A stretch of DNA of 64,000 bases from Spirochaetia bacterium. GTDB lineage: Bacteria; Spirochaetota; UBA4802; UBA5550. The notes under the pieces are model-generated. The model saw nothing but the letters and a program-made list of their open reading frames with translations. It was not told the DNA's origin and did no database searches. Numbering within the stretch: the first letter of the stretch is position 1; every line of letters begins with the position of its first letter. Position numbers and translations under genes: made by a program. Positions 10,443 through 30,233 of the stretch are shown one piece after another. The stretch lies in the NCBI GenBank assembly GCA_009885955.1, contig VFJS01000033.1, positions 1-64,000 of the forward strand, given 5' to 3'.

Positions 10443-10709
10443 TTATGGGAAATATTTATAAATATCTTTTCTGTGTAAAAAACATACAACAGTAATTATT
10501 GGATTTTCATAAAAAATTCCAATTCTATAATCACCTATCCTGATTCGATAATAGTTATCATGCCCATGTAGTTTTTTGATATTTTTGATTTGTTTTATTG
10601 AAGAAGCATTTTCTATTTCATTTATTGTGTTGAAAATAGCTGCTAAAATTTTTTTAGTATTTATATTATCGATAACCTCACTGAAACTTTTTTTAATCTT
10701 AATCTGCAT
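10443..10709 (-). CDS. RelE/ParE-family toxin
   Basis: An 88-residue basic protein with the RelE fold pattern: an N-terminal strand, two helices (ILAAIFNTINEIE...), then IKKLHGHDNYYRIRIGDYRIGIFY and a final strand-rich VVCFLHRKDIYKYFP. The RIRIGDYRI segment and the terminal HRKDIY-YF are typical of RelE/HigB-type ribosome-dependent mRNA interferases or their ParE relatives. The gene lies 5 bases after the stop of a small acidic/basic antitoxin candidate, the usual antitoxin-toxin order. Activity is inferred from the family. Confidence 0.85.
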   Translation of the reverse strand: MQIKIKKSFSEVIDNINTKKILAAIFNTINEIENASSIKQIKNIKKLHGHDNYYRIRIGDYRIGIFYENPIITVVCFLHRKDIYKYFP

Positions 10710-11265: not shown

Positions 11266-12333
11266 ATGATAAAAGAAAAAGTATTTTTCATAGAATCGAA
11301 CAACAGTGAAGACGACCCGAGCAGGTGTGAAAAACTGAAAAGCCTGATACAGAAGCAGGGCCTTTTCGATTATATCGGAAAGAACGAACTGGTGGCAGTG
11401 AAGAGCCACGTGGGAGAGGGGAAAAAATCGGGCTTTGTGCGGCCGGTGTTTTTGAAAATGATGGGAGATATCATAAAGGATAAAAAGGGTGAACCCTTCC
11501 TCACGGAAACCTCGACGCTGTATATGGGAAACAGGAGCAATGCGGTTAGGCACAGCATGCATTCCATCGGCCAGGGTTTCGGGGCCGAGAATATCGGATA
11601 CCCCTTCATCCCTGCAGACGGTCTTTTCGGCGATGAGGAGATGGAAGTGAAAATTCCGGGGAAAATATACAAGAGCGTAAACCTGGCTGCCCTGATTGTA
11701 AAGGCCAACTCCCTTATCATGGTATCCCATTTCACCGGCCACCTTGTTTCCGGTTTCGGCGCGGCTTTGAAGAACATGGGCATGGGGTGCGCAAGCAGAA
11801 AAGGAAAAATGATACAGCATTCCACGATGAAACCTGCAATCATTGAAAAAAAATGTACCATGTGCAACATGTGCGTTGAATGGTGCCCGGAAGCGGCCAT
11901 AACCATGGAGGAGAAGGCGGCACTTATCGATCCGAAAAAGTGTATCGGCTGCGGCCAGTGCCTTGCCGTGTGCCAGTTCGGCGCGGTGAAGTTCAACTGG
12001 GGAACAGGGAGCGAAGACCTCCAGAAAAAAATCGTGGAGCACGCCTGGGGCGTTGACATTGCAAAAAAAGGGAAGGTGGTTTACATAAATTTTCTGACGA
12101 GGATGTCCAAGGACTGCGACTGTATGGATGAATATGTGAACATTGCCGATGACATCGGCATACTGGCGTCCTTTGACCCGGTAGCTATTGACGCGGCATC
12201 AATCGATCTCTTTGAAAAGTATTCGGGAAAGAAGTTATCGGAAGTGGCCTTTGACCTTCCGTACAGGCACCAGATCGATTATGCCAGGGAGATCGGTTTC
12301 GGGAATGCGGAGTATGAGATTGTGAAGGTGTAG
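11266..12333 (+). CDS. DUF362 protein with two 4Fe-4S ferredoxin motifs
   Basis: A 355-residue protein of the DUF362 / uncharacterised Fe-S centre family. Residues 1-185 and 260-355 carry the DUF362 fold. Inserted between them is a two-cluster ferredoxin domain: C197-x2-C200-x2-C203-x3-C207 (WCPEA) and C226-x2-C229-x2-C232-x3-C236. It is probably cytoplasmic and redox-active, but the family has no established reaction. An AAGGA site precedes the ATG. The last 48 codons (from 12190) are present in two more copies downstream (13409-13552 and 14387-14530), each beside an MNT/HEPN toxin pair; see findings. Confidence 0.9.
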   Translation: MIKEKVFFIESNNSEDDPSRCEKLKSLIQKQGLFDYIGKNELVAVKSHVGEGKKSGFVRPVFLKMMGDIIKDKKGEPFLTETSTLYMGNRSNAVRHSMHSIGQGFGAENIGYPFIPADGLFGDEEMEVKIPGKIYKSVNLAALIVKANSLIMVSHFTGHLVSGFGAALKNMGMGCASRKGKMIQHSTMKPAIIEKKCTMCNMCVEWCPEAAITMEEKAALIDPKKCIGCGQCLAVCQFGAVKFNWGTGSEDLQKKIVEHAWGVDIAKKGKVVYINFLTRMSKDCDCMDEYVNIADDIGILASFDPVAIDAASIDLFEKYSGKKLSEVAFDLPYRHQIDYAREIGFGNAEYEIVKV

Positions 12334-12343
12334 GGGGGTGGGT

Positions 12344-12386
12344 ATGACCGGTTTAATATTTGATGTTAAATCGGTCATGATTTTTT
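12344..12386 (+). terminator. Intrinsic terminator after the DUF362 gene
   Basis: ATGACCGGTTTAA (12344-12356) pairs with TTAAATCGGTCAT (12366-12378) with one mismatch, followed by a run of six T at 12381-12386. It starts 10 bases after the DUF362 stop codon. Confidence 0.8.
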
Positions 12387-12424
12387 ATCAGTTCATGGAG
12401 ATTTTCATATCTTATTCAAACATA

Positions 12425-12823
12425 TTAACTTATCATCAATTTTTTTATATTATCCAGAAATATCAGCATATTGGTGAATAATTTATTTACTTCTTCTTTA
12501 GAATAGTGAACAAAATCATCGTAATCCCCTTTGCTGCGCATTTCAAAGGCGGTTTTGAGCATTTTCCCGATTTCTTTTTCAACCTTAGCTTCTTTTACAA
12601 ATGTTTTATTAAACCACCCTATAAGACCGAGATGTTTTGATGCATCAAATCCATGATGCAAGGCAAGAGCTGAAAGGGAATAAAACATGGCATAGTAGAT
12701 TCTATTAACGGCTATTAAATAATGTCCCTGGTCTATTAAAAATTGAATAACCGGGATTAGATTATCAGCTTTTTCAAGACGGTGTTTAATCAGTTCTTCC
12801 CGATCCGCTTTATTCAAAGTCAT
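12425..12823 (-). CDS. HEPN-domain protein of an MNT/HEPN pair (first module)
   Basis: A 132-residue all-helical HEPN protein. The segment AVNRIYYAMFYSLSALALHHG followed by KTFVKE and an RSKGDYDDF stretch is typical of the PF05168-like HEPN partners of minimal nucleotidyltransferases. The canonical RNase motif R-x4-6-H is not obvious, so this copy may act through another mode than the HepT RNases. Its start overlaps the stop of the nucleotidyltransferase gene by four bases. In known MNT-HEPN pairs the HEPN partner is the toxin and the MNT protein neutralises it by AMPylation; that assignment is by family. Confidence 0.85.
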   Translation of the reverse strand: MTLNKADREELIKHRLEKADNLIPVIQFLIDQGHYLIAVNRIYYAMFYSLSALALHHGFDASKHLGLIGWFNKTFVKEAKVEKEIGKMLKTAFEMRSKGDYDDFVHYSKEEVNKLFTNMLIFLDNIKKLMIS

Positions 12824-13137
12824 ACATGAATTCCTGTTTCAATGGCATTCATGATGAATGGCTGTTTGCCCTTGATAGTGGACAGTTCATTTTTTGTAAT
12901 CAATTTGACATCTATGATAATATCATATTTCAAATCAAGGTCGTAGCAGATGTCATATATCTTCCACTCGAGGTCGGAATTGTAATCAATTGATAATACG
13001 ATTAAGACATCATAATCAGAATAATTCTGCGGGGTCCCAGTAACCCTTGATCCAAAAAGTATAACCTCATCTATAATGTCTCCTAATCGTTCATTTAAAA
13101 TTTTTTTTAATTCATCAAGGAAAAGTTTGTGTTCCAT
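12820..13137 (-). CDS. Minimal nucleotidyltransferase (MNT) antitoxin, first module
   Basis: A 105-residue MNT protein. The polymerase-beta-like signature is G29-S30 followed by ten residues and D41-x-D43 (SDYDV), the GSX10DXD motif of MntA antitoxins. I start it at the ATG at 13137; a longer form would begin with TTG at 13167. It is the upstream gene of a coupled pair with the HEPN gene. Function by family: transfer of AMP onto the HEPN toxin. The pair points against the DUF362 gene and lies between its intact 3' end and a second copy of that 3' end. Confidence 0.85.
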   Translation of the reverse strand: MEHKLFLDELKKILNERLGDIIDEVILFGSRVTGTPQNYSDYDVLIVLSIDYNSDLEWKIYDICYDLDLKYDIIIDVKLITKNELSTIKGKQPFIMNAIETGIHV

Positions 13138-13408
13138 ACATTTTGTCCATTGGTTGTTTTTAAACAATTATAATTCAAATATTGTTATGATTCAACAAAT
13201 AAAAAATATTCACCGGCAATTTGTTAATTTTTCAAGATCTGATATATGCTGAATTTTATCAATACAGGTCGATTATTTGATGTTTTTGAGGGAATCCTGG
13301 AGATCCTGACTCAGGATCGTCCTGAAATTGGGATCAGCAGGTGGGATGAAAGGGGCTTTTTATATGAATTCAGGTTGATATCTCTCAATGTCGAGGAAAG
13401 GACGCAGG

Positions 13409-13552
13409 GATGCGGCATCAGTCGATCTCTTTAAAAAGTATTCGGGAAAGAAAATATCGGATTTGGCCTTTGATCTGCCATACCGGCACCAGATAGAATA
13501 TGCAAAAGAGATCGGTTTCGGGAACGGGGAGTATGAGATTGTGAAGGTGTGA
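13409..13552 (+). pseudogene. Second copy of the DUF362 3' end (48 codons)
   Basis: An in-frame copy of the last 48 codons of the DUF362 gene at 11266, from D-A-A-S-V-D-L to the stop, without indels or internal stops. About 20 of 144 bases differ from the intact copy when compared by eye, many at third codon positions. Bases 13427-13452 match the other copies at 25 of 26 positions. Upstream (13246-13408) there is no similarity to the DUF362 gene, so the copy has no start of its own. It lies between the two MNT/HEPN modules. Confidence 0.85.
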
Positions 13553-13569
13553 TATTTTTTATGTTCTGA

Positions 13570-14001
13570 TTATTTTGATGAATGTTTGATATATTTATTT
13601 AACTCTGAAAGAAAATCTTCCCACAAATCCGGCAAATTTACTGCAAGGGGGAGTAATTTTTCTTTATCCACCATTACCCCGTATCCGTGAATGAAAAAAT
13701 GCCGAAAGGCGCGGTATTCATCAAGTCTATGCAGAAGTTCAGTTGAAATTATTTGATTTTCAACTGATAAATCCAATAAATCTTTATGCCATGAATCTGT
13801 TGTTTTAATTGTTACACCTGAATATTTCAGCACCCTTTTTAAGATGTTTTCCATTCCATTATAAGTATTTTGGAGAAACACTGAAATGGCTGCAAGTTCT
13901 ATGATAGTCTTTTCCTTCCGGTCCGATGCCTGCGTTAATGCCTGCAATGTTTCCAGAATATATTCCTTATCAGCTTCGATCTCCAGTAATAAATCATCCA
14001 T
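13570..14001 (-). CDS. hepT: HepT-like HEPN RNase toxin (second module)
   Basis: A 143-residue helical HepT-family protein. The RNase motif R-x4-H-x-Y is intact as R100-HFFI-H105-G-Y107. The tyrosine is the residue that MntA enzymes AMPylate in characterised HepT/MntA systems. It overlaps the MNT gene upstream by eight bases, so the pair is coupled. It is not closely related to the HEPN protein at 12425: the two differ in length and motif. The gene name is by family resemblance. Confidence 0.85.
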   Translation of the reverse strand: MDDLLLEIEADKEYILETLQALTQASDRKEKTIIELAAISVFLQNTYNGMENILKRVLKYSGVTIKTTDSWHKDLLDLSVENQIISTELLHRLDEYRAFRHFFIHGYGVMVDKEKLLPLAVNLPDLWEDFLSELNKYIKHSSK

Positions 14002-14263
14002 ATATTTTTATGGCTTTAGCTTCTATTATTCTATTAAATGAGGAGTTGATTGACAGGTCCACGATATCAATCGGTTTTGATAAATTTCTCATCAGCTCAC
14101 CGTAGAATTTAAAAAATTTATCCGGTTTGATGCCCTTCACACCCAGATCAATATCATTGGAATCCTTATCATCCTCGAGGGATGAGCCGAAGAGGTAGAT
14201 TGATGAGACTTGGTATCTTTTCCCGCAATTGATTATAAATTCTTTATCATGGTCGTTTAACAT
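13994..14263 (-). CDS. mntA: Minimal nucleotidyltransferase (MNT) antitoxin, second module
   Basis: An 89-residue MNT protein. The signature is G26-S27, nine residues, then D37-I-D39 (SNDIDLG), one residue shorter than the usual GSX10DXD. The C-terminal part (PIDIVDLS) carries the third acidic strand of the family. It is the first gene of the second MNT/HEPN pair. It would act by AMPylating HepT. Upstream lies a third copy of the DUF362 3' end on the other strand. Confidence 0.85.
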   Translation of the reverse strand: MLNDHDKEFIINCGKRYQVSSIYLFGSSLEDDKDSNDIDLGVKGIKPDKFFKFYGELMRNLSKPIDIVDLSINSSFNRIIEAKAIKIYG

Positions 14264-14383
14264 GGTTTATCCGCAATTCAATATTTTATGAATATGCTAT
14301 GGAATTGTTACAAAAATGTCAAATCTAAATCTATGAAAGAATTTATTTTTCTGAGTATACCAGAGTGTCTTGTCACCGTGGTC

Positions 14384-14530
14384 ATCGACGCAGTGTCCAT
14401 CGACCTCTTTGAAAAGTATTCGGGAAAGAAGATTTCTGAAGTGGCCTTTGACCTGCCGTACCGGCACCAGTTAGAATATGCAAAGGAGATTGGTTTCGGG
14501 AACGTGGAGTACGAGATCGTGAAGGTGTAG
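14384..14530 (+). pseudogene. Third copy of the DUF362 3' end
   Basis: From the codons for I-D-A-V-S-I-D-L to the stop this is a third in-frame copy of the DUF362 C-terminus, again 144 bases from the same Asp codon (14387) to the stop and without indels. Bases 14405-14430 contain the same 26-base core as the other copies. A reading frame continues upstream to 14288 but that part does not resemble DUF362. It ends 44 bases before the stop of the convergent kelch gene. Confidence 0.82.
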
Positions 14531-14573
14531 GGGTTCCTTCTGATACAGTCAGGAGGTACTCTATCAGTTGAAA

Positions 14574-16460
14574 TCAATAATTCGGCGGAATATATTCCTC
14601 TACTATGTTTGTTGTCATATGGGAACTTTTTTGGGGATCACTCCACGTCTCACCGCCGATGACATATATTCTGCCATTGACAACCGCTGTATTGGAAGAA
14701 AAAAATCCTCCCAGGTGATTCATACTTGTCATGGTTTTCCATGTATCAGATACCGGATCGTATTCAAGAACTGTATTTGTATAAAAGGTTTCCCATGAAG
14801 CATTCGTTAAGCCGCCAATTATATAAATTTTTCCATTCACTGCTGCTGCGGTGTGAAAACCTCGGGCTTCGGGCATCTTGTTTTTAGTTTCCCAGGTGTC
14901 AGTTAGGGGATCATAGACTTCTACCACATCAAATAAATCCGCACCTCCCGCCCCCCTGCCTCCCATGATATAGATTTTCCCATTGAATACTGTGGATGAA
15001 TGTGCGAATCTTGCAGTGGGCATGGGTGTTTTATTTACTAGAATAGAATAAACAGGGTCATATTCATTTAATGTATCATATACAGTGCTGGTATTGCCAT
15101 CCCAGCCGCCAATTATATACATTTTGCCGTTAAAAGAAACTCCTGAAAACCAGTTTATATTTACATTACCGGGATGTGGACCAATTCCGGTCCATAGATC
15201 AGTTTTCGGATCATATACATAAAAAGCGCCCCAGGATAATGCATAAATTTTTCCATTTATCACTGCAGTAGCCCATCCAGCTCCAGAATAGGTCAAATTT
15301 GATTTATACGTCCAGGAGTCTGATATAGGATCATAGACTTCTAATGAATATTGAATTACTGTAGATAAAGGATTTGTATATGAATCCCACCCACCAAATA
15401 CGTATATTTTCCCATTAATATCTACTACACCAGCGACAGCTCTTTTAGTTATCATAGATGTTTTGGTTGACCAGGCATTTTTATTAATCCCTGCTGCTGG
15501 TGGAGTATATTCTTCAACCTTGCCCGTAAGAAAACTCCCAATATTCCCGCCAATGACATATATCTTTCCATTGACTTCTGTCACAGAAAAATTTGTTCTT
15601 CCTGTTAGCATATTAGTCTGGCTGCTCCATTGGCCAGTTATAAAATCATATTCTTCAACCTCCTTAGTAATGGATATCAAAGAATATATTTTCCCATTTA
15701 CTGGTGCGGCTTTTTCCATCGTTAAATTAAGTGAATAATTAGCTAGTGCAACCCAGGTATCTGTTGCGGGTGTATAGATTTCGATTTTTTTTGACGTACC
15801 AGAGTTTTCATATCCTCCGATGGCATAAATTTTATCATTGATTACCGAAAGAGTGACATGACTTCTAGCAGTTGGCATATCTGCCTTGTTAGACCATATG
15901 TCGGTCACCGGGTCATAGAGCTGTACAGATGATCTGATGGTGCCGAAATTAATGCCCCCTATGACATATATCTTGCCGTTGAATTCCACTGCAGAATGGC
16001 TTTCAGATGGAAGAAAATCGGTTTTTAAGTTCCATGAGTCAGTGAAAGGATCGTACTCATCCACACGTGATAGGGTCGATGTGCCGCTTGAACCTCCGAT
16101 GATATATACCTTGCCGTTCACCGTTACCGATGTATGCTTGGTGCGTTTTACCGGCATGGGGGATTTCATGGCCCAGATATCGGTGACTGTGTTATATTCT
16201 TCTACTGAATCGGTAACGGTGCTCGAAGCTTTATCGATAGTACCCCCAAAGGCATATATTTTCCCATTGATCTGGGCGGTTGCAAGGTCCTCTCTGGGTA
16301 CCGCCATGCTTTTTTTTGTTAACCATCTGTCCGGTGTAGGAACCTTACCGATTTCGGAATTGTAATTTTTGGCTTTTATGTCAATGGGATTGTCCCTGTC
16401 AGCTTTGACGCAGGAATTGATGAAAAATAATAGGATTAGCAGTAATTTTATCGATTTCAT
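14574..16460 (-). CDS. Kelch-repeat lipoprotein, 12 repeats
   Basis: A 628-residue protein with a lipoprotein signal (lipobox INS-C17) and 12 kelch-type repeats of about 48-50 residues. Each repeat has the pattern NGK-I/V-Y-x-I/F-GG followed by VEEYDP-x-TDTW and a K-x-x-MP-x-x-R stretch. Twelve repeats suit two six-bladed propellers. The protein is probably surface or periplasmic and takes part in binding. It is the last gene of a minus-strand cluster that starts with an ECF sigma factor at 22289 and includes two CsgG/FN3-like proteins and two Lcl-domain proteins. Confidence 0.9.
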   Translation of the reverse strand: MKSIKLLLILLFFINSCVKADRDNPIDIKAKNYNSEIGKVPTPDRWLTKKSMAVPREDLATAQINGKIYAFGGTIDKASSTVTDSVEEYNTVTDIWAMKSPMPVKRTKHTSVTVNGKVYIIGGSSGTSTLSRVDEYDPFTDSWNLKTDFLPSESHSAVEFNGKIYVIGGINFGTIRSSVQLYDPVTDIWSNKADMPTARSHVTLSVINDKIYAIGGYENSGTSKKIEIYTPATDTWVALANYSLNLTMEKAAPVNGKIYSLISITKEVEEYDFITGQWSSQTNMLTGRTNFSVTEVNGKIYVIGGNIGSFLTGKVEEYTPPAAGINKNAWSTKTSMITKRAVAGVVDINGKIYVFGGWDSYTNPLSTVIQYSLEVYDPISDSWTYKSNLTYSGAGWATAVINGKIYALSWGAFYVYDPKTDLWTGIGPHPGNVNINWFSGVSFNGKMYIIGGWDGNTSTVYDTLNEYDPVYSILVNKTPMPTARFAHSSTVFNGKIYIMGGRGAGGADLFDVVEVYDPLTDTWETKNKMPEARGFHTAAAVNGKIYIIGGLTNASWETFYTNTVLEYDPVSDTWKTMTSMNHLGGFFSSNTAVVNGRIYVIGGETWSDPQKSSHMTTNIVEEYIPPNY

Positions 16461-16475
16461 AACGTTAAATTTATT

Positions 16476-17726
16476 TCAGAATTTTATCCCGATCCCTGCC
16501 TCATATCTTTTTTCAGATGTTGGTAAATAAACATTATATATATTAATTTTCAAAAAAATATTATCTTCATTTTTATCTTTATAAGAGGCGACTGTCTGTT
16601 TAGTGTTTATATCATTAAAGTATAGTGCATCAATCCAATGTATAACATAAACCGCTGTCATGAGCCCCAGGGAAATGTTTGAATATAAGGCGGCTTTTTC
16701 CGCGGCGTTGTATTTTCTGTCAATGGTGCCCTGTGAAGTGCCGAATTTCAGTTTGTCATATTCTTTCTGTTTCCTTGTGTAATCGTAGTAGCATATTCCT
16801 GCAAGGGCACCGGTGATAGCGAAACCGGACATGAAAATATAACCCTTAGTGTTATTCCCGTAATAGTACTGTCCCAGGCCCGGTAGAAAAATATTTCGTG
16901 AGTAATACCCGAATTTTGTTTTACCTCTCACCCCCTCCCTCGGCTCTCCAAAGGGGCCAATTTTATCAAGGATACCCGAGCGGAGCTTATAATAATAACC
17001 CTTATTTGAAATAACCGATGTATCGCTGAACTCCGTTGCCCCTGTTTTTTGGACCATTATATAATTACCATTTTTTGTGTCAGACCGGAAAATGTAATAG
17101 ATCTCTGCACCCTTTACGGGGTCCCATTTTAAACGGATTTTATCAGAGTAATCTCCATAGGAAGCTGAAAAATTTTTTGGCGGATCGAGCTTTATTTCAT
17201 CGGTAACAATTGCCACATCCTTTGACAACTCAGCAGAGGCCCTTGCAGCCAGGAGATCGATTTTTTCTTTCAGGTCATCTTCATTTTCGGCGGATTCCTC
17301 ATCGGCAAATCTCAATGTCCCGTCTTTTATACCCACGAGCCTGATGGTTATGGTGTATTTACCCATTTTATTCAGCGATCCTATCATGACATAATCGGCG
17401 GTGAGGAGTTTCCCGATGTTGACGGCACAATCGGACTCGGTACAGCCGGTCAACTGGAACCCCTGCTCCTTTAGCAGTGTTTCCATCTGGTTCCGTTCCA
17501 GTATATCGGCGCATTCAGTTTTATGGAGAGCCGTTTCAAACAGGTTTCTTACCGCATTTGCCTTTGTCGAAGATGTATTTTCAGATTTGAAATCCATTAT
17601 AGCGATTTTTTTTTTGATAGTTTCCGAATATGATAAATTATTACATATTAAAATTAATAAGTATGTGATAGATATTTTTTTGATAACTGAATTTAAAATT
17701 ATACACAAAATATTTAACTTTGTCAT
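16476..17726 (-). CDS. Secreted CsgG/FlgO-like plus FN3-like protein with C-terminal membrane segments
   Basis: A 416-residue protein (ATG at 17726; a GTG at 17738 is possible). After a signal peptide, residues about 35-185 match the CsgG/FlgO/TolB-N-type domain: KKIAIMDFKSEN, then ILERNQMETLLKEQGF, then ADYVMIGSLNK and a strand-rich tail. Residues about 190-275 resemble a fibronectin III domain (LKWDPVKGAEIYYIFRS). Residues about 285-365 contain LPGLGQYYYGN and two hydrophobic helices, like the protein at 154. It is a clear paralogue of the protein at 19643. Envelope lipoprotein-like or secretion-associated roles are inference. Confidence 0.8.
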   Translation of the reverse strand: MTKLNILCIILNSVIKKISITYLLILICNNLSYSETIKKKIAIMDFKSENTSSTKANAVRNLFETALHKTECADILERNQMETLLKEQGFQLTGCTESDCAVNIGKLLTADYVMIGSLNKMGKYTITIRLVGIKDGTLRFADEESAENEDDLKEKIDLLAARASAELSKDVAIVTDEIKLDPPKNFSASYGDYSDKIRLKWDPVKGAEIYYIFRSDTKNGNYIMVQKTGATEFSDTSVISNKGYYYKLRSGILDKIGPFGEPREGVRGKTKFGYYSRNIFLPGLGQYYYGNNTKGYIFMSGFAITGALAGICYYDYTRKQKEYDKLKFGTSQGTIDRKYNAAEKAALYSNISLGLMTAVYVIHWIDALYFNDINTKQTVASYKDKNEDNIFLKINIYNVYLPTSEKRYEAGIGIKF

Positions 17727-17820
17727 ATATTTATTCACAATAAAAAATCTGGATAAACATTAGTTTTTGTCATTTATGTAAAATATCTTTTCATTCATCA
17801 TTATTATCAATATTAATAAT

Positions 17821-18306
17821 TTACGGCCCAACTACACAACGGACTACATATGCTGCAGAAGGTCCAGTTTTCCATGCCCATGATAATATTCCCTCTCTAA
17901 AGTCTATAGACATACTAGATGTTGTTGTTGCTGTTGGAGAAGATGTTGAGGAGTATAATGAATTGTTTACATTAGGTTTGGTTGGAAAATAGGATGTGTT
18001 AATTGCTGGATAAACAAAATTATAATCAATTATACTTACTAGTTCATTAATATTGGGGAGCCTCCAATCGCCTCTTCCTCCAAGTGAAAGGGACTGGCAA
18101 TAATTTATTGCGCTTTCCCAATTAAATCCAATTTCATTTCCAGTTGAACAGTTTGTCCCCGATGTTCCTGCAATGCATTTCTGCCATATAAGTCGGGTGC
18201 CTGCATCATAAATAGTCCCGTCTCCATTATCTCTGAATCGGGATGCAGATAGTATAATGAAAGATTGTGTAGCAATTAAAATTGTAAAAAATAATGTGAA
18301 TTTCAA
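17821..18306 (-). CDS. Small secreted Lcl/DUF1566 domain protein
   Basis: A 161-residue protein. A signal peptide (1-20) is followed by one Lcl C-terminal (DUF1566) domain: RFRDNGDGTIYD, GTRLIWQKC, GRGDWRLPNINELVSIID and a terminal VRCVVGP. The start appears to be TTG at 18306, because no in-frame ATG lies before the domain and an AGGA site stands about nine bases upstream. Lcl domains occur in secreted adhesins such as the Legionella collagen-like protein; here there is no collagen repeat. A similar domain ends the adjacent protein at 18356, so the two may share a ligand. Confidence 0.82.
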   Translation of the reverse strand: MKFTLFFTILIATQSFIILSASRFRDNGDGTIYDAGTRLIWQKCIAGTSGTNCSTGNEIGFNWESAINYCQSLSLGGRGDWRLPNINELVSIIDYNFVYPAINTSYFPTKPNVNNSLYSSTSSPTATTTSSMSIDFREGILSWAWKTGPSAAYVVRCVVGP

Positions 18307-18355
18307 TTTTTTTTTCCTGAATTATTATTTTTTTAATATTATTAGAAAATGTGAT

Positions 18356-19636
18356 TTATGGACCTGAAACACAAAGAACGGCCAACCAATTTGAATCTTT
18401 TATCATATAAAAAATTTGAGGACTATAAATTTCAATGCTCCATGTATTATTTGTATCTCCAATGAAAGGCGTTGATGACCAATATGTTGTATATGATGTA
18501 ATTGTTGTTATTCCTGGAAAGTATTGCATGTCTATCGGTGGATAAATACCGTAATTCAGAATGGTTCTTAATTCTATTATGGAAGGCAATCGCCAGTCTG
18601 TCCTGCCGCTGTAGCCCTCTCCGATGTTTACTGTATTGAGTGCACTACAGGCGGTTTTTGCGTCTTCATTATTGAATCCTGTCACACTTCCGCCAGAGCA
18701 GGGTGCCCCAGGCGAGCTGGTAGCACCTTCCGCGCATGATTTCCAGATGAGCCCAGTGAGATTATCCTTTGTAATATAATCTGATGTAAAGGTGGCATGT
18801 TGGGTAGGAGCATTGAAGCTCCGGGCATTGGGTATATTGACATAGTCGCTGTCCTCGCCGAACACTGTCGAATAACTTGTAGTTTGTCCGGTATCGGCAA
18901 TTGGATAGACTGTAGTGATTTGGAATGTCGTTGTTGAACTTCCTGTTATTGGATAATTGTCGATAGCTGCGTTAAAGCCTGAAAAATTGACAGCGATGAT
19001 ATCAGAAATAATAAAATCCGAAAGAGGATTGATTGTTAATTCTTTATCGTTCCAGGAAATTGCAGGAGAATTTTTATCATAGGAAGTTCCATTTATAGTG
19101 ACGCTCCATGAATTGTTCTGAATCATCGCCTCGCTAAATGTGATAATTATGTCCGTGTCTTTAGATATATAGTCTGAACCATCAGCCGGATTGAGGATTG
19201 CAGTAGGATAGAGAAAGGTAAATGCTTTTGATGTATCCGGAAAGGGAAAATCATCATATTCAGAGGTAAAACCTGACGCTTGAACATTAATGGTGCTTTC
19301 CCGTGTTAAAAAGGTTATGGGATTGATTGTCAGCATGGTCTTACCGGAGTTCCAAAGGCCTGTTATATATTCAGTTCCTGCAATCACGACCTTCCAGGAA
19401 GATAGTTGATTGACCGGTTCGGAAAAGGCGAGGATGAAGTCTGCGTCCGGTAAAATTTCTGTCAATCCGTTTTCTGATGATATTGTTATGTTTAAATTTA
19501 ATTTCGATTTATATTTGCTGCTCAAAAGATCATTTTCTGCATCCCGCGGCGGTTTGTAGACCTGGTAGCATGACAGTATTGAGATATAGGATGCCAGGAA
19601 AAGCGATGCCGCAAATTTTATTTTTTTGGTGATCAT
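18356..19636 (-). CDS. Lipoprotein with Ig-like repeats and a C-terminal Lcl/DUF1566 domain
   Basis: A 426-residue protein starting at ATG 19636 (TTG at 19642 is also possible). The lipobox is ILS-C. Residues about 45-145 and 145-245 are two SbsA/Big-type Ig-like repeats, each with an I-x-F-SE-x-(V/M) motif (FILAFSEPVN, IIITFSEAMI) and a LTINP strand. Residues about 285-426 form an Lcl domain (GLIWKSC, GRTDWRLPSIIELRTILN, terminal VLCVSGP). It is most likely exposed on the cell surface. The gene starts seven bases after the upstream stop codon, so it is co-transcribed with the CsgG/FN3-like gene. Confidence 0.85.
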   Translation of the reverse strand: MITKKIKFAASLFLASYISILSCYQVYKPPRDAENDLLSSKYKSKLNLNITISSENGLTEILPDADFILAFSEPVNQLSSWKVVIAGTEYITGLWNSGKTMLTINPITFLTRESTINVQASGFTSEYDDFPFPDTSKAFTFLYPTAILNPADGSDYISKDTDIIITFSEAMIQNNSWSVTINGTSYDKNSPAISWNDKELTINPLSDFIISDIIAVNFSGFNAAIDNYPITGSSTTTFQITTVYPIADTGQTTSYSTVFGEDSDYVNIPNARSFNAPTQHATFTSDYITKDNLTGLIWKSCAEGATSSPGAPCSGGSVTGFNNEDAKTACSALNTVNIGEGYSGRTDWRLPSIIELRTILNYGIYPPIDMQYFPGITTITSYTTYWSSTPFIGDTNNTWSIEIYSPQIFYMIKDSNWLAVLCVSGP

Positions 19637-19642
19637 AAACAA

Positions 19643-20854
19643 TCAGTAATTAATACTTGCAAAGAGGGCTATCCTGGCCTCGGTTTTTAAATTAAAATAT
19701 GTTTCCTTATATATATTAATATTGAAATGGCTGTATTTGTCTTGTCCCTGGTTGCCCTTGAATACCGGTTCATTGAATATGAGAATATCAATCCAATTTG
19801 CAATATAGAGAGCACTCCAAAGGGCAAGGGAATAGAGGACAGTATTTGTTGACTTGACATAAGCATTATATTTTGCAGTGGCATTGCTCCTGGAAGTTCC
19901 AGAGGGTATGCCGTAATATTGATTTTTTTTGTTTGTGTAATCAATATATGTATATAAAACTATGGAATTCGCCAGCAGGAATCCGCTAAGAAAGAAGTAT
20001 CCCTTGAAATTATTCCCATAATATAACTGCCCCAGACCTGGAATTAGTCCACCCATGTAGTACATAACAGCTGATTTACCTTTCATGCCGTCCTTTATCT
20101 CACTAAAGGGTCCTGTTATATCGGATACCCCTGATCGGATTTTATAGTAGTAACGCTTACCTCCTTCGACTGAGGTGTCGTTATAAAATGTTTCTCCGGT
20201 TTTTGAAATCATATCATATTTTCCATACATATCATTTGAACGGAAAATATAATACATTTCGGCATCCTTCACTGGCTCCCATTTGAGAGAAATTTTATCT
20301 TTGTGATCGCCCTTTGATGCGGTAAAATTTTTCGGCATGTCCAGATTCAATTCATCTGATTTAATTGATACATCTTTCATTAGTTCCCTGGCAAGCTTTC
20401 CCGTAATAATATCAATCTTGCTTTTAAGATCATCTTCTTTGTCAGCTGATTCTTCATCGACGTATCTGATTTTCCCGTCAATGATGCTGACAAGCCTGAT
20501 GGATAATGTATATTTTCCAAGTTTATTCAATGTTCCCACAATAACATAGTCAGCGGATAGTAGTTTTCCTATATCCACAGAACATACTGTATCGGTACAC
20601 CCGGAAAGCTGGAAGCCCTGTTCTTTTAAAATTGTCTCCATCCGGGTCCGTTCAAGAATGTTTGCGCTGTCGGTTTTATGCAGTGATACCTCGAACAGGT
20701 TCCGTACAGTATTCGCATAGGCTTCCGATGTATTTTCCGGTTTAATATCCATTATTGCGATTCTTTTTTTATTCACAATTTCCGAATATGAATAAGTATT
20801 AAAATAAGAAATCGACGAAATTATTATGATAAACCAGATGGTTGTCTGCTTCAT
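19643..20854 (-). CDS. Secreted CsgG/FlgO-like plus FN3-like protein, paralogue of 16476
   Basis: A 403-residue protein with the same order of parts as the protein at 16476: signal peptide (1-24), CsgG/FlgO-like domain (about 28-175; KKRIAIMDIKPEN, ILERTRMETILKEQGF, ADYVIVGTLNK), FN3-like domain (about 180-265), and a C-terminal LPGLGQLYYGN segment with hydrophobic helices. The two paralogues bracket the two Lcl genes, which suggests duplication of a protein-Lcl pair. The C-terminal half of the CsgG-like domain also resembles the extracytoplasmic part of the anti-sigma candidate at 20953. Confidence 0.82.
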   Translation of the reverse strand: MKQTTIWFIIIISSISYFNTYSYSEIVNKKRIAIMDIKPENTSEAYANTVRNLFEVSLHKTDSANILERTRMETILKEQGFQLSGCTDTVCSVDIGKLLSADYVIVGTLNKLGKYTLSIRLVSIIDGKIRYVDEESADKEDDLKSKIDIITGKLARELMKDVSIKSDELNLDMPKNFTASKGDHKDKISLKWEPVKDAEMYYIFRSNDMYGKYDMISKTGETFYNDTSVEGGKRYYYKIRSGVSDITGPFSEIKDGMKGKSAVMYYMGGLIPGLGQLYYGNNFKGYFFLSGFLLANSIVLYTYIDYTNKKNQYYGIPSGTSRSNATAKYNAYVKSTNTVLYSLALWSALYIANWIDILIFNEPVFKGNQGQDKYSHFNINIYKETYFNLKTEARIALFASINY

Positions 20855-20952
20855 ATTTTTATTGGTTAAATTAAATTTGACAAAAATAGAAATTATTACT
20901 CTTGTTATTTTTGTATTTTATTTTTATTAAAGCTACTAATATGTCAACTTCA

Positions 20953-21771
20953 TTATTCAATGGATAATGCGATTTTTTTTGCAATTCTTAAACATGCGGT
21001 ATTAATTTCATCCTTTGTTTCCGCATTATCTGATACACTATAGGTCACTTTCGAATTTTCAACATTCACGATTTTCGCTGAAATGATATAACTTTTCCCC
21101 AGCATCTCCACTGAACCTAAGAGAACAAAATTAGAATTTTTTCTGATATCACTGTAAAGCCGTTTTACCTTGTTATTTCCTTTAATTTTAATCAGTTCCT
21201 CTGTTAATAAATCGGAAATTTTTATGGCCTCTTCTGTTTTTACAGCGCTGCTTGTAAAGGTTTCTACACCAATCCTGTATTTAACCGGGGGTTCGGAATC
21301 TTTAATGGACAACATTTTATCTTTATTTTCTTCTATGTTGTTTGTTTTTTCTCCGGTTTTATCATCTATAGTATTTTCTTTATTATTTATGCTTTTCCCC
21401 GGTTCATCTTTCCCATTAACCTGGTTATCCTGCTTAGATTCATACCCGCCTGTCCCGGGTAAATCTTTCATTCCTGTTTTTAAAAAAATGGAATATATTA
21501 CTAAAGATACACTTGCTGAAATTATTAAAAATACAGTGAACGCTACAACCTTACTCTGAGCAACCGACAGCCGGACTCCTATTTTTTTCGCTGAATAATA
21601 TACCTTCAGCACAAATCCGTAGATAATGCCATATTCGTTAACAGCTTTCAGGGTGTTTATTAGGGACTTCATCTTGTAATCCAGGATATACCGTGATACA
21701 TCGGGAGGTATGGGTTCCCTGAACCTGAATTTATCGAGAAGTTTTTCAAAATTCTGAACCATGCCGTTCAT
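20953..21771 (-). CDS. Membrane protein, candidate anti-sigma factor with FlgO/CsgG-like extracytoplasmic domain
   Basis: A 272-residue single-pass membrane protein: an N-terminal cytoplasmic part (1-73), one helix (about 74-97), a charged linker rich in Asn, Lys, Asp and Glu (about 98-155), and a C-terminal domain (about 160-272). The C-terminal domain (SNFVLLGSVEMLGKSYIIS and following) resembles the end of the CsgG/FlgO-like domain of the proteins at 16476 and 19643. The start overlaps the stop of the ECF sigma gene by four bases. Position and topology suggest an anti-sigma factor, although no zinc or RsiW-type motif is visible in the N-terminus. Confidence 0.72.
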   Translation of the reverse strand: MNGMVQNFEKLLDKFRFREPIPPDVSRYILDYKMKSLINTLKAVNEYGIIYGFVLKVYYSAKKIGVRLSVAQSKVVAFTVFLIISASVSLVIYSIFLKTGMKDLPGTGGYESKQDNQVNGKDEPGKSINNKENTIDDKTGEKTNNIEENKDKMLSIKDSEPPVKYRIGVETFTSSAVKTEEAIKISDLLTEELIKIKGNNKVKRLYSDIRKNSNFVLLGSVEMLGKSYIISAKIVNVENSKVTYSVSDNAETKDEINTACLRIAKKIALSIE

Positions 21772-22289
21772 AGGAGATCCTCGATATTTTCAATGCCTTT
21801 GCTTTTGAGGTAATCAAGAATCTTCTCCACAATCCTCCGGTATCGGTATTCAACCTTTCTCTTTGTGAGGCCCAGGTGCTCTGCCACATGGCTGTAGCTG
21901 TAATTGCTGAAGGCAACGAGATCGAAGAGGATTTTATCCTCTTCGATCTGAAAGTTTTCAATGTTCTCAAAGGCCTCGCTGATGATGATCCTCGCATCCC
22001 TGAAACCATTGACGAAGGTGAGGCTCACGTCGTTGAATATCTCGTCGATATCCAACGCTTCGCCCTTCTTTCGCTTCCGGTAAAATTCGAAGACCGCGAG
22101 CCTGAGAGCGCCGAAGAGCCACTTACGGTGGTTTTCTATCTCGCCGAATTTTTCATAAAAAATCAGAAATACCTCCTGGCAGATATCCCTGGCATCATCG
22201 ACATTGTTCACCTTGGTATAGACCGCGCCAAAGACAATGGGATAATAGAGATTATGCGCTTCGGTATAGATGTCTCTTTTTCTGTTCAT
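21768..22289 (-). CDS. RNA polymerase sigma factor, ECF type
   Basis: A 173-residue sigma factor. Region 2 spans about residues 8-80, with DDARDICQEVFLIFYEKF (region 2.2) and RKWLFGALRLAVFEFYRKRKK (region 2.3-2.4). Region 4 spans about 110-165 with the HTH (YSYSHVAEHLGLTKRKVEYRYRRI). It lacks regions 1 and 3 as ECF factors do. It is the first gene of a minus-strand cluster running to 14574: the anti-sigma candidate and five secreted or surface proteins follow. Control of that cluster by this factor is plausible but no target promoter motif was confirmed. Confidence 0.9.
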   Translation of the reverse strand: MNRKRDIYTEAHNLYYPIVFGAVYTKVNNVDDARDICQEVFLIFYEKFGEIENHRKWLFGALRLAVFEFYRKRKKGEALDIDEIFNDVSLTFVNGFRDARIIISEAFENIENFQIEEDKILFDLVAFSNYSYSHVAEHLGLTKRKVEYRYRRIVEKILDYLKSKGIENIEDLL

Positions 22290-22361
22290 TTAATTCAATG
22301 GTTCATGCATTATAAGCGTTGAAAGGATAGAAAACGGCACCATTTTTATTGTATAACCCGG

Positions 22362-22533
22362 ATGCCCTCACCGCGCTCTGCGCCTCGTCGAACGCTTTTC
22401 GGACATCGAGCTGCAGGATGCAGCGAATGGCGAAGTGCGACAGGACGTCGCGAAAAACTTCGGCCTGTCCGCGTTCGACACTAAAGCATCCTGCTTGTCG
22501 CCTCTCTTTATAGGGCGAGGGCTTTTTATGTAA
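22362..22533. repeat. GC-rich repeat family C interrupted by a second element
   Basis: The ends match repeat family C (CCCTCACCGCGCTCTGCGC on the left; TAGGGCGAGGGCTTTTTATG on the right), as in the uninterrupted copy at 37699. Between them is about 115 bases of unrelated GC-rich sequence whose ends are an inverted repeat (GTCGAACGC...GCGTTCGAC) enclosing GGACA/TGTCC. This looks like one small repeat inserted into another. No protein is encoded. Confidence 0.65.
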
Positions 22534-22559
22534 AACTTCGCGTAATCATTATAACAACC

Positions 22560-22579
22560 CTGTCAAGCATGATCATGCT
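22560..22579 (-). repeat. 20-base repeat, copy 1, overlaps the end of fic
   Basis: On the minus strand the sequence is AGCATGATCATGCTTGACAG, with a perfect 14-base palindrome. It supplies the last codons and stop of the fic gene (His-Asp-His-Ala-stop). Two further copies, on the plus strand and with one difference in the palindrome, are at 24373-24392 and 25167-25186. Confidence 0.75.
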
Positions 22580-23732
22580 TATCTTTTCTTTTCGCAATAA
22601 AATTTTTCAAGACAATTGAATTTGGGGAGAACGTCCCATCATCATTTTCAATGAGTAAATCAAGATTGATTAATTCCTGGATATCCCGATTTGTTGTTCT
22701 TTCAGAAAGATTATTGTAGGTCAAAGCAATTTCAACAGATACTTTTGTAATGTTTTTCAAATTAAACCTGGAGCCGATTGGGAGAGAAATAATTAAATTC
22801 CTTCTTCTTTTATTTACTTCCTCAGTTTTTCCAGTTATCTTTTTACTCTTAAAAACATTATAAATATAATTCGTCCAGGATATTTCTATCTGATTCGTTT
22901 GAACAATATCTACTATATGGTACAAACCATCACGGTAGCCTTGAATAGCATATTTAAGAAATTCATTTAAATTGCCGGTTTTGGTTGAATTGTCCAAATG
23001 ACGATAGTACTCGGATCTTGTTTCATTATAGAAATTTGATAATAAATGGGAAGCAAAATCAGGATTTCCGGCGCGTAGTAAAATGTAAAACTCTATGAGA
23101 CGGGCTGTCCGCCCGTTTCCGTCGCCGAATGGATGTATCCATGCGATATAGACATGTAACACAATGGCTTGAATTACCGTGTTTATGTAATTCTGCCCTT
23201 GTTCATAGTGAAATTCTGTTTTCATCCAATCGCAAAGTTTTTGGATCATAGGAATTACGTCTTTGTAATCGGGGCCGCGATATTTTCCTACGGTAACATT
23301 GTGGCCTCTAAACTTTCCGGGAATCGCATTAAAATGTTCACCAAGATTTTGGCCAACCATTTTGTGAAGCCGCAAAATAAATTCAGGAGTGATGAGTTGA
23401 TCTTTATTATCTATTACTACTTCCAAAAGTAGCGCGTTAAACGCTTCAATAATATTTTGCACTTCTTTTTGCTGATACACTTTACTCGGGGGTAAATCTT
23501 TCCCTTTTTGAATAGTAACTATTTCTTCTTCAGATAAGGTATTTCCTTCAATTGCTGTTGTTGATTGAGCACCTTTTATTAGTGATACATTCAATAATTG
23601 ACGTCTATAGTCAGGTTCCATGGGTATTTCAGTTAGGACTTTGATTGTCGCATCACACTGGCCAAGCATATAACTCATGTCGTTAGATAAATCCCATTGC
23701 ACACGAAATAAAATATGGTTAAATTTATTCAT
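22563..23732 (-). CDS. fic: Fic family protein (AMPylase type, class II)
   Basis: A 389-residue Fic protein. The catalytic motif is H200-PFGDGNGRTAR (HxFx(D/E)GNGRxxR), complete. An N-terminal inhibitory helix motif (T58-x-x-x-E62-G63, within STTAIEGN) makes it a class II, self-inhibited Fic protein. The C-terminal part (about 290-385) is a winged-helix-like region. The chosen start at 23732 has an AAGGAG site; a longer frame to 23819 has none and would run into the promoter. The family transfers AMP to hydroxyls of target proteins; the target here is unknown. The last codons lie in a 20-base dispersed repeat. Confidence 0.9.
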   Translation of the reverse strand: MNKFNHILFRVQWDLSNDMSYMLGQCDATIKVLTEIPMEPDYRRQLLNVSLIKGAQSTTAIEGNTLSEEEIVTIQKGKDLPPSKVYQQKEVQNIIEAFNALLLEVVIDNKDQLITPEFILRLHKMVGQNLGEHFNAIPGKFRGHNVTVGKYRGPDYKDVIPMIQKLCDWMKTEFHYEQGQNYINTVIQAIVLHVYIAWIHPFGDGNGRTARLIEFYILLRAGNPDFASHLLSNFYNETRSEYYRHLDNSTKTGNLNEFLKYAIQGYRDGLYHIVDIVQTNQIEISWTNYIYNVFKSKKITGKTEEVNKRRRNLIISLPIGSRFNLKNITKVSVEIALTYNNLSERTTNRDIQELINLDLLIENDDGTFSPNSIVLKNFIAKRKDKHDHA

Positions 23733-23754
23733 GATTTTCTCCTTTGACAAAAAA

Positions 23755-23806
23755 AATATACTATTTGTCCGAAATATTGTCAATATATGTGCCGAAATTT
23801 TGTCAA
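23755..23806 (-). promoter_or_regulatory. Sigma-70-like promoter of fic with a direct-repeat operator
   Basis: Read on the minus strand, TTGACA (23778-23783) and TATATT (23755-23760) are separated by 17 bases, close to the sigma-70 consensus. The -35 hexamer lies in one of two direct repeats, TTGACAA-A/T-ATTTCGG, spaced 23 bases apart (the second begins at 23806). This would leave a leader of roughly 15-20 bases before the fic start at 23732. The repeats look like an operator; the repressor is unknown. Confidence 0.68.
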
Positions 23807-23941
23807 AAATAAGTAACATATTTCATTTTTATCAGTGTTTATCCAGTGTAAATTCATGCGTAAATATTTTGTGACGATCCCCCACATTTCGACGCTTCAA
23901 TATTGAAAGACAGATTTATAGATATTATTGGGGGATTTTCC

Positions 23942-24415: not shown

Positions 24416-24709
24416 TTAAATTCTCGTCTGCCAATACCCTGGCTTTCTGCTGAGATGCATAACTGCTATTATAAAGATATGATTTGATTTTGCTTTATAT
24501 ATGATGCCGTAAGGGAATTTGCTCAGTAAATATCTGCGGAAAAATTTTGAATACACAGGCCAAGTTTCAGGCATATCCTGTATAGATAAAAAAGCCGACT
24601 CAAGTTCATTTAGAAAATCATCACCCAGACCTTTTGATTTTGAATCATACCATAAATAGCTTTCTTGTATTTCAAATGTGACATCCGGATGAAACTCAAG
24701 AGCAGGCAT
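24416..24709 (-). CDS. RelE/ParE-family toxin
   Basis: A 97-residue ParE-type toxin. The order of elements is typical: FHPDVTFEIQESYLWYDSKS, a GLGDDFLNELESAFLSI helix, WPVYSKFFRRYLLSKFPYGIIY, and a terminal strand with HLSRKPGYW. It overlaps the upstream antitoxin gene by one base. In the family such proteins poison DNA gyrase or act as RelE-like RNases; which one cannot be told here. Confidence 0.88.
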   Translation of the reverse strand: MPALEFHPDVTFEIQESYLWYDSKSKGLGDDFLNELESAFLSIQDMPETWPVYSKFFRRYLLSKFPYGIIYKAKSNHIFIIAVMHLSRKPGYWQTRI

Positions 24710-26469: not shown

Positions 26470-26621
26470 ATTTTTCCCGGCCATTTTCTGTACGGACGGG
26501 TTTTGGCCAGACAGGGGGGATGGAACTTGATACATATCAAATTCCAATGTATCGGAATAGTGTTTGTGAAGGCATTTTTTAATAGTTTATATCATAAATG
26601 GATCATGAGGAGGACTCCGTA

Positions 26622-29600: not shown

Positions 29601-30233
29601 GAAAATTACCAATACTGGCAAAACCAACAAAGTGGGAATCGCATAAGTAAATATTTGATCGGCTACGAAGTAGCAGATGATTGGACTAACTCATATACAG
29701 GATATGATGTAGTTACTTTTACTGTTAATGGTGGTATTGATACAATCACCCAAACAAATCTTTCCTCAGTTACAAAATCCGGTAATATCGTAACGGTCTC
29801 TTTTGACTCGACAATTACAGGAAAAGCCTGGATTTTCTTTGCATCATCCACTGCGGCCTATAACACAATTCGGTATGATCCCCTGGCAAATGCAGGCATC
29901 TCGAGTCCAATATCAACCGGTCATAATATCACCAGTACTTCGAGCATAACCTATGATATCACATCAGGTGGTTTTGGTTCTGGGTATTATATATCTAAAA
30001 TATTATTTACCTATGGAACTGATGTTTCGGTAACAAACGGCACTCTATCTCATTACGGTGATGAATACAGTTTTTCAGGAGTGAGAAAGGATTATTATGC
30101 CTTTCCTGTAGATATGGATACGTATCATAATAATACTTTTTGCGGTGGGTTGGTTGATTTTAATTTTTTTTATGAAGTTACAAATAGGGAGAAGCCGGTA
30201 AAGACAAATATCTCTATTATTCCGGCTTGGTAA
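26622..30233 (+). CDS. Large lipoprotein with two Big_2 domains, a Big_5-like domain and a seven-repeat propeller
   Basis: A 1203-residue lipoprotein (lipobox FAG-C19, then a Ser-rich linker). Residues about 33-117 and 121-202 are bacterial Ig-like Big_2 domains; about 204-318 is an SbsA/Big_5-like domain. From about 322 to 735 follow seven repeats of about 59 residues, each opening W-T/S-F-V/I-DGNG-x-x-G-I/L-N and ending Q-x-R-x-A-V-YNGNDSSP, which suits a seven-bladed propeller. The C-terminal 450 residues show beta-sandwich-like character. I start at ATG 26622, which has an AGGAGG site eight bases upstream, instead of the ATG at 26598. Surface binding is the likely role. Confidence 0.88.
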   Translation: MKFKFFLLVLIINVIFAGCAGSSSSSKNPGDATVAVTGVSLNKTTTNILVGGTEQLTANITPGNSTNQNITWVSSNSSKATVSSSGLVTGVAVGSVIVTVQTTDGSFTATCNVTIAAATVSVTGITLNKTSTSIGVGNNEQLITTITPNNATNQNVTWSTSDSSKATVSSSGLVTGVATGTSAITVTTADGTLTAMCNVTVLDITPPTVLNTIPADGAKDIVLNSSFSMTFSEIMNPSTLSVQASDGACSGNIQISSDNFTTCLGGTISTSGNPVIVWTPASKLWISQNYKVRITTNVQDSGGNALASDDTRSFTTQDVSTWVFVDGNKGNGINKDISKGATSPKATQFNNKLYITWNENNGTSTQIRVVVFNGNDSKPGWTFVDGNGINGINKNSVRPAFSSRLIVFNSKLYCCWIENNGSATQVRVAVYNGNDSSPVWTFVDDDGTNGINKDSTKNAAAVMWKVVGTKLYIAWQEMNATAIQIRAAVYNGNDSSPVWTFIDGNGANGINKNNTMDASVPLLTSFNNKLYATWYEKNSSAITQIRASVYNGNDSSPAWTFVDGNGIDGLNKDYTKNALVSLLTAFNNKLYISWYESDSNNVTQVRAAVYGGDDAAPTWSFIDGNGSSGLNKDITKNAVIALMYSISSKLYMTWKEDNSTSTQNRVAVYNGSDSSPAWTFVDGNGTNGINYNPAMSTTLNQSASILNNFNGKVYAIWAELNPSGLTQIRVAVGATYTPFNVTQGVTSQGISKIWKAEKNINEFFRHDQIGYDYDNEDRYLIFDDTTATIIGGKDIDKDGVIDKYMTYLNAKCSYTYNPITKNITLSNAEGQRTLSINSNNKVIDLNFDGGNMYIFNNSSSIFNQNISVWPESDQMQSEVIDYYSGTRPTEFIVNSLSASYASTTKTITVTYNITSKDSRNISWLVFRLVSPSIKNDFESYSGGQHYQVSPTISSGTNVNGSFSITFNGTMLPENGVWDINDIIVGFDTNNSFGENYQYWQNQQSGNRISKYLIGYEVADDWTNSYTGYDVVTFTVNGGIDTITQTNLSSVTKSGNIVTVSFDSTITGKAWIFFASSTAAYNTIRYDPLANAGISSPISTGHNITSTSSITYDITSGGFGSGYYISKILFTYGTDVSVTNGTLSHYGDEYSFSGVRKDYYAFPVDMDTYHNNTFCGGLVDFNFFYEVTNREKPVKTNISIIPAW

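Follow-up and report, generated by a model that had tools for sequence, protein, structure and literature searches.

A candidate envelope-signaling unit with like domains on an anti-sigma factor and its partner in uncultured spirochaetes

We examined a 64,000-nucleotide stretch of DNA from a Spirochaetia bacterium (contig VFJS01000033.1; hereafter the window), and in particular a cluster of seven minus-strand genes at positions 14574-22289 that encodes an extracytoplasmic function (ECF) sigma factor, a presumed membrane anti-sigma factor and several secreted proteins. The outer domain of the anti-sigma factor is homologous to domains of secreted proteins encoded beside it, and among relatives the type of this domain changes jointly with the neighboring partner. 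The cluster looks like a new wiring that carries a signal from the cell envelope to genes in a group of uncultured spirochaetes.

The sigma factor gene cluster

The sequence check found all seven genes as open reading frames. The features of the locus, in the direction of transcription, are as follows.

22311..22340, minus strand: promoter-like motif of the sigma family, GTGCCG-N16-CGCTTATA; same spacing in the three nearest sigma relatives
21768..22289, minus strand: ECF sigma factor, 173 amino acids; TIGR02937 and Sigma70_r2 over cut-off, r4_2 under
20953..21771, minus strand: presumed membrane anti-sigma factor, 272 amino acids; 4-nucleotide overlap with the sigma gene, hydrophobic segment
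21481..21549, minus strand: predicted transmembrane segment of the anti-sigma factor, amino acids 75-97; hydropathy 2.4, AlphaFold helix 70-98
20956..21288, minus strand: CsgG/PelC/TolB-N-type sensor domain of the anti-sigma factor, amino acids 162-272; AlphaFold, profile match to partner domain
19643..20854, minus strand: CsgG-like partner protein 1; Pfam CsgG E 4e-7
18356..19642, minus strand: Lcl_C lipoprotein with Big_5 domains; Pfam Lcl_C E 2e-23, Big_5 E 2.7e-7
17821..18306, minus strand: short secreted Lcl_C protein; Pfam Lcl_C E 7e-27
16476..17738, minus strand: CsgG-like partner protein 2, paralogue of protein 1; Pfam CsgG E 2e-8
14574..16460, minus strand: kelch-repeat lipoprotein; Pfam Kelch_1, 11 stretches, E 2e-108

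Lipobox-like sequences are present in the Lcl_C/Big_5 lipoprotein (...SILSC) and in the kelch lipoprotein (...FFINSC). The original prediction had named two Lcl proteins, a kelch lipoprotein and two CsgG-like secreted proteins in this cluster, and the Pfam matches bear out each of these assignments. With gaps between consecutive genes of -4, 98, 0, 49, 82 and 15 bases in transcription order, and with the only terminator-like site on the cluster strand lying within the sigma gene, the seven genes likely form one operon.

The sigma factor scores 45.2 bits against TIGR02937 (sigma70-ECF; cut-off 42.9) and 28.5 against Sigma70_r2 (cut-off 24), and its match to r4_2 (20.2) lies under the cut-off of 25.7. 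It consists of regions 2 and 4 only and its length falls within the range of ECF (group 4) sigma factors, which is about 170-200 amino acids. We defined its family with a profile built from 25 sequences and applied at E <= 1e-25 to 296 Spirochaetota genomes, 27 of which carry the family. All 27 belong to the order of the window's genome, and none of about 250 Spirochaetota genomes outside this order had a match to the profile at that threshold. The named relatives are metagenome-assembled genomes of uncultured Spirochaetes, for example RBG_16_49_21, RBG_13_51_14, HGW-Spirochaetae-5 and UBA5550. A scan of genome contigs with the anti-sigma protein as the lone query returned no match, whereas the sigma alignment did find relatives.

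A two-box motif recurs upstream of the sigma genes, with a first box like TTTTTGTC/G and a second box like CGCTTATA or CACTACTA. A position-weight fit of the family-wide motif gave a total score of 708, as compared to 492-565 in shuffles; counting exact two-box motifs across all loci returned A/T runs only. The window's version shares its spacing with motifs upstream of the sigma genes of loci L069, L071 and L189 (we refer to loci by L numbers). When the clade pattern GTNNCG-N16-CRCTTATA was searched genome-wide as an exact pattern, its single match was the one upstream of the window's sigma operon. Because this promoter-like motif is unique in the genome, it suggests that the sigma factor autoregulates locally, and the autoregulation would cover the envelope genes only with read-through of the operon. 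A regulon that excludes the cluster's genes had been named in the original prediction as evidence to look for against it, and the position of the motif does not point that way. Just upstream of the promoter-like motif, at 22395-22545, lies a repeat element that is richer in G+C and contains short inverted repeats; it has 39 matching places in the genome, most of which match about 40-65 nucleotides of the element.

The sensor domain and its conserved partner

The start of the anti-sigma gene overlaps the stop of the sigma gene by 4 nucleotides (ATGA), an overlap of the kind expected for translational coupling and kept in 56 of 57 homologous sigma/anti-sigma pairs. The encoded protein has one strong hydrophobic segment, at about amino acids 75-97, with a richer positive charge on its N-terminal side. 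AlphaFold, which we used to model this protein and one barrel-type partner from a relative (L109), places three helices ahead of the membrane helix with low confidence. The N-terminus has no Pfam or NCBIfam match, including none to a Pfam anti-sigma domain, and the role of this membrane protein as an anti-sigma factor is presumed.

The outer part of the anti-sigma factor is a complete CsgG/PelC/TolB-N-type domain that is homologous to the neighboring secreted proteins. A single-sequence search gives only a weak, C-terminal FlgO match (E 0.011, amino acids 202-247), and Pfam CsgG matches of the secreted proteins reach only about positions 30-101 of 210. Comparison of the anti-sigma profile with separately built profiles of the secreted proteins yields E 2.6e-18 across 108 columns. 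The original prediction had likened the sensor to the C-terminal half of the secreted domains; the likeness holds, but the match spans the entire CsgG-like domain and we therefore rejected the reading as a half domain. The anti-sigma version is about 25 residues shorter in the middle, where the secreted proteins have a stretch, ILERxQMxxILKEQG..GCTDxxCAV, that it is without. AlphaFold models amino acids 162-272 as a confident domain, with a predicted local distance difference test score (pLDDT) of about 90 over most of it. Its similarity to known structures (Z-scores on the DALI scale) is highest for PelC (Z 13.3, root-mean-square deviation 2.4, 105 residues), followed by the TolB N-domain (12.1), FlgT (11.7), CsgG (11.2) and the periplasmic part of CadC (9.4). 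Structural dissimilarity, which would have spoken against the original prediction, is not seen in the models: the predicted structures have a common CsgG/PelC/TolB-N fold. Given the profile match and the common fold, the resemblance exceeds chance by far, and a chance resemblance was rejected.

In order to see how sensor and partner are distributed, we analyzed the neighborhoods of the sigma relatives, which contain 57 sigma/anti-sigma pairs, 56 of them intact. The N-terminal part of the anti-sigma factor is common to the family and the C-terminal part is exchangeable: among the 56 it is CsgG-like in 29, FecR with an SH3-like tail in 13, SH3-like alone in 10 and a short tail in 4. The short-tail proteins (L080, L083, L096, L204) end in a charged tail with an SDVPTL-like or VPSM terminus and have no folded sensor. 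Counting as a partner any CsgG-like gene on the same strand within 2.5 kb, we found one adjacent in 29/29 pairs with a CsgG-like sensor (24 downstream, 5 upstream) and in 0/27 pairs without such a sensor, 3 of which reach a contig edge within about 300 bases. Fisher's test, which ignores kinship, gives p 1e-16 for this co-occurrence, a value that overstates the case because the sequences are related.

On the sigma tree, the sensor label changes 6 times, with at least 3 changes forced by well-supported branches. The partner label agrees in all supported comparisons with the sole exception of L197, a locus cut by the contig end; its contig starts inside the partner's barrel (tblastn E 3.6e-25; barrel profile E 4e-16). 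A tree-based sign test did not reach significance alone, as the well-supported branches offer too few independent pairs, and trees of such short proteins resolve only in part. The sensor domains and the partner domains fall into two separate clean clades, the former with a single origin, which argues for one old pairing and not for repeated copying of the neighbor. The occurrence of the partner on either side indicates that the pairing is conserved, and not one frozen gene order.

These data bear on two other explanations. The CsgG/LpoB-type domain of the anti-sigma factor might be a generic sensor of a different cue, such as the state of the cell wall or the traffic of lipoproteins, with the neighbor being only a related member of the regulon. 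The fold is indeed widespread in envelope proteins (TolB, LpoB, PelC, FlgT, the periplasmic part of CadC) and the two domain sets do fall in separate clades; strict co-occurrence, together with loss and exchange of the partner, is unexpected for a mere regulon member, and we give this explanation little credence. It is also conceivable that the three genes travel as a cassette by shared ancestry and that the domain match is functionally meaningless, as adjacency and the single origin of the sensor domains would allow. The lineage-dependent position of the partner disagrees with this, as does the second, unrelated domain type that matches in the same way on the same barrel (see below), and we regard such hitch-hiking as very improbable. 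Since sensor type and neighboring partner change jointly, comparative genetics strongly supports a pairing between sensor and secreted protein, as the original prediction had proposed; its further proposals, that the sensor gauges how the Lcl and kelch proteins assemble or competes with the secreted proteins for a third partner, did not find support.

Predicted barrel partners and matched domain exchange

In the AlphaFold model of the L109 partner, an 8-stranded outer-membrane barrel follows a CsgG-like domain (TolB Z 14.7); pLDDT is mostly 80-95, and the barrel resembles NspA (Z 19.6) and OmpA (Z 19.2). A barrel profile built from CsgG-type partners only matches most of those partners, so that most partners in relatives are predicted to combine a barrel of this kind with a periplasmic CsgG-like domain. 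The same profile matches neighbors of SH3-type anti-sigma factors at 9/23 loci (E 2e-33 to 2e-6, within 3.5 kb) and almost nothing else near sigma genes. These SH3-type partners carry a signal peptide, SH3-like repeats, FnIII domains in several cases, and the same barrel. Their SH3-like domain matches the SH3-like tail of the anti-sigma factors in profile comparison (E 2.5e-10). The strongest argument for direct pairing of like with like comes from the fact that one barrel carries two unrelated domain types and both follow the same rule.

Other proteins with these domains were seen near such units. At one locus of the CsgG type (L208) a further SH3-type protein is encoded on the opposite strand, at a distance of 5.5 kb, and in L191, L195, L198, L209, L210, L211 and L213 secreted FecR-like proteins with the same SH3-like C-terminal domain, some of them divergently transcribed, adjoin FecR/SH3-type anti-sigma factors. 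In CsgG-type units other than the window's, the genes downstream of the partner are often for secreted lipoproteins that contain beta-propeller or lectin-like regions, such as FG-GAP/PKD (L069), aBig_2 with laminin-G (L066), CHB_HEX (L075) and kelch (L189) proteins, a pattern that the window's kelch and Lcl lipoproteins fit.

An assembly or feedback gauge, an idea already contained in the original prediction, has to be weighed against the barrel data. The anti-sigma domain would here join or cap an oligomer of CsgG-like proteins, as in PelC and CsgG rings, and unassembled or excess partner would titrate the anti-sigma factor, so that the stimulus is the amount of partner and not an outside ligand and sigma output tracks envelope assembly. 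The nearest folds include PelC dodecamers and CsgG rings, the partner belongs to the same presumed operon, and CsgG-like proteins 1 and 2 bracket the Lcl genes. However, most partners have an OmpA-like 8-stranded barrel and no secretion pore, and a gauge of this kind by itself leaves the SH3-type units with the same barrel unexplained; we consider it unlikely. A CsgG-type secretion pore was rejected as a candidate, as there is no full CsgG with pore-forming membrane hairpins and the barrel is of the OmpA-like class.

The window's own partners differ from most. CsgG-like protein 1 is composed of a signal peptide, the CsgG-like domain, an FnIII-like region and two hydrophobic segments. It is 52-54% identical to protein 2, and neither matches the barrel profile. 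The hydrophobic segments of both weakly resemble those of DUF5683/LIC11435-type proteins, and judging from these segments both partners may reside in the inner membrane. Elsewhere in this genome there are a second unit of the CsgG type (L066) and one of the FecR/SH3 type that has an SH3 barrel (L067), together with about ten more CsgG-like genes, some of which adjoin Lcl genes without a sigma factor (L099, L100). The genome also encodes a membrane protein with both FecR and CsgG-like parts (L068:5419-6579, plus strand), which lacks an anti-sigma part and is not next to a sigma gene. Since this protein again stands beside a CsgG-like partner, we counted it in favor of the pairing.

Further genes lie around the cluster within the window. 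They encode a Fic-domain protein (22563-23819), ParE-like toxins (10443-10709 and 24416-24709) and, close to the cluster but outside it, a 1211-amino-acid lipoprotein with Big_2/Big_5 domains and repeated WTFVDGNG units (26598-30233). Two further copies of the last 177 nucleotides of a DUF362/ferredoxin gene (12160-12336) lie at 13379-13555 (74%) and 14357-14533 (81%), and a nucleotidyltransferase and HEPN/HepT pair occurs in each interval between these repeats (12425-13167 and 13570-14263). The pattern, at 11266-14533, is as if toxin-antitoxin-like pairs had been inserted successively at the 3' end of the DUF362/ferredoxin gene, duplicating that end.

A proposed signaling unit and its relation to known systems

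Taken together, these data make it fairly probable, in our judgment, that the locus encodes a trans-envelope signaling unit in which anti-sigma factor and envelope partner pair through homologous domains, as in Fec systems but without a TonB receptor. The anti-sigma factor would retain the ECF sigma factor at the inner membrane, and its CsgG/TolB-N-type domain, on the periplasmic side, would form a direct pair with its periplasmic homologue on the envelope protein of the neighboring gene. This partner would in most relatives be the outer-membrane 8-stranded barrel protein; in the window it would be CsgG-like protein 1, perhaps also protein 2, held by the hydrophobic segments. A change sensed by the partner would alter the pairing and the anti-sigma factor would then be inactivated, by proteolysis if it behaves like FoxR. 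The freed sigma factor would transcribe its own operon, giving more partner and more surface lipoproteins. We further propose, as an evenly balanced possibility, a class of TonB-receptor-free signaling in which the barrel is the constant body of a receptor, and CsgG-like or SH3-like domains are swapped as a matched pair that sets the specificity between receptor and sigma factor.

Several observations weigh against this proposal. The window's own partner is without a barrel, which makes an outer-membrane origin of the signal less certain at the window itself. The weaker hydrophobic stretch of the anti-sigma factor at amino acids 47-63 would permit a two-helix topology that places the sensor in the cytoplasm; the charge distribution and the AlphaFold helices favor a single membrane segment, though model confidence is low there. 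Once the sigma tree is accounted for, sensor and partner distances correlate only weakly (partial r 0.28; 35 of 2000 permutations). Both partner families also occur in many copies per genome at sites that are not near sigma genes. Finally, an SH3 barrel is missing from the vicinity of 14/23 SH3-type units (3 of the 14 at contig ends). Copies of the SH3-barrel type occur elsewhere in all seven checked genomes with SH3-type units lacking such a neighbor, and none occurs in one checked genome that holds only a tail-type unit.

The CsgG/PelC/FlgO/LpoB envelope proteins share the fold of sensor and partner domains, but CsgG differs in its membrane hairpins, which are absent here, where the barrel is of the OmpA-like class. 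CadC is a one-component DNA-binding activator. CadC-type regulators also use a TolB-N-like fold as a periplasmic sensor and differ in having neither a sigma factor nor a homologous partner. Our search of the literature, which was limited to open access, returned nothing relevant on anti-sigma factors with CsgG/TolB-type sensors.

The original prediction knew of no described system with such a layout; in principle there is a precedent. The periplasmic part of the anti-sigma factor PupR ends in an STN domain with the fold of the receptor's signaling domain (PMC7186176); in PupR and FoxR the STN-like domain pairs with the STN signaling domain that an outer-membrane receptor carries (PMC7186176, PMC11637429). 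For FoxR, contact in the resting state shields the anti-sigma factor from proteolysis (PMC11637429). In common with such FecA/FecR/FecI-type systems (PupB/PupR, FoxA/FoxR), the units described here have an ECF sigma factor, a presumed membrane anti-sigma factor with a probably periplasmic domain and, in most relatives, an adjacently encoded partner predicted to be in the outer membrane, like domains on both (E 2.6e-18 for the CsgG type, 2.5e-10 for the SH3 type), signs of autoregulation and, on some anti-sigma factors of this sigma family (for example L067), a FecR domain (PF04773). In contrast, the paired domain is CsgG/TolB-N-type or SH3-like; the cluster proteins gave no Pfam STN match at E 1, and both domains match the CsgG/PelC/TolB-N fold. 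The partner barrel is predicted to be 8-stranded and OmpA/NspA-like, as opposed to a 22-stranded TonB-dependent receptor with a plug, the downstream genes encode surface lipoproteins, and the window's partner has no barrel at all. Because the TonB-dependent 22-stranded receptor that defines Fec systems and any STN match are missing, we do not class these units as Fec members.

For the window's partner there is a precedent in VreA/VreR/VreI (PUMA3) of Pseudomonas aeruginosa, where the signaling domain is carried by a barrel-less partner (PMC2729926); VreA differs in having STN and TolA/TonB-like domains, in being largely soluble and in lacking a CsgG fold. Closer in taxonomy is LIC_12757/LIC_12756 of Leptospira interrogans, an autoregulated ECF sigma factor with a FecR-like regulator; according to a review, Leptospira has no known receptor that bears the usual N-terminal extension (PMC12655853). 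No CsgG-like sensor has been reported for that pair, and about 250 Spirochaetota genomes outside the window's order gave no match to the window's sigma family.

If the proposal is true, the Fec principle, in which an anti-sigma factor bears a copy of the receptor's periplasmic domain, would be more general and would extend to other folds and to small barrels. It would offer a possible answer as to how FecR-like regulators could receive envelope signals in spirochaetes, whose known TonB receptors are without the signaling extension, as is reported for Leptospira (PMC12655853). The natural domain exchanges would provide a test set for receptor-sigma specificity.

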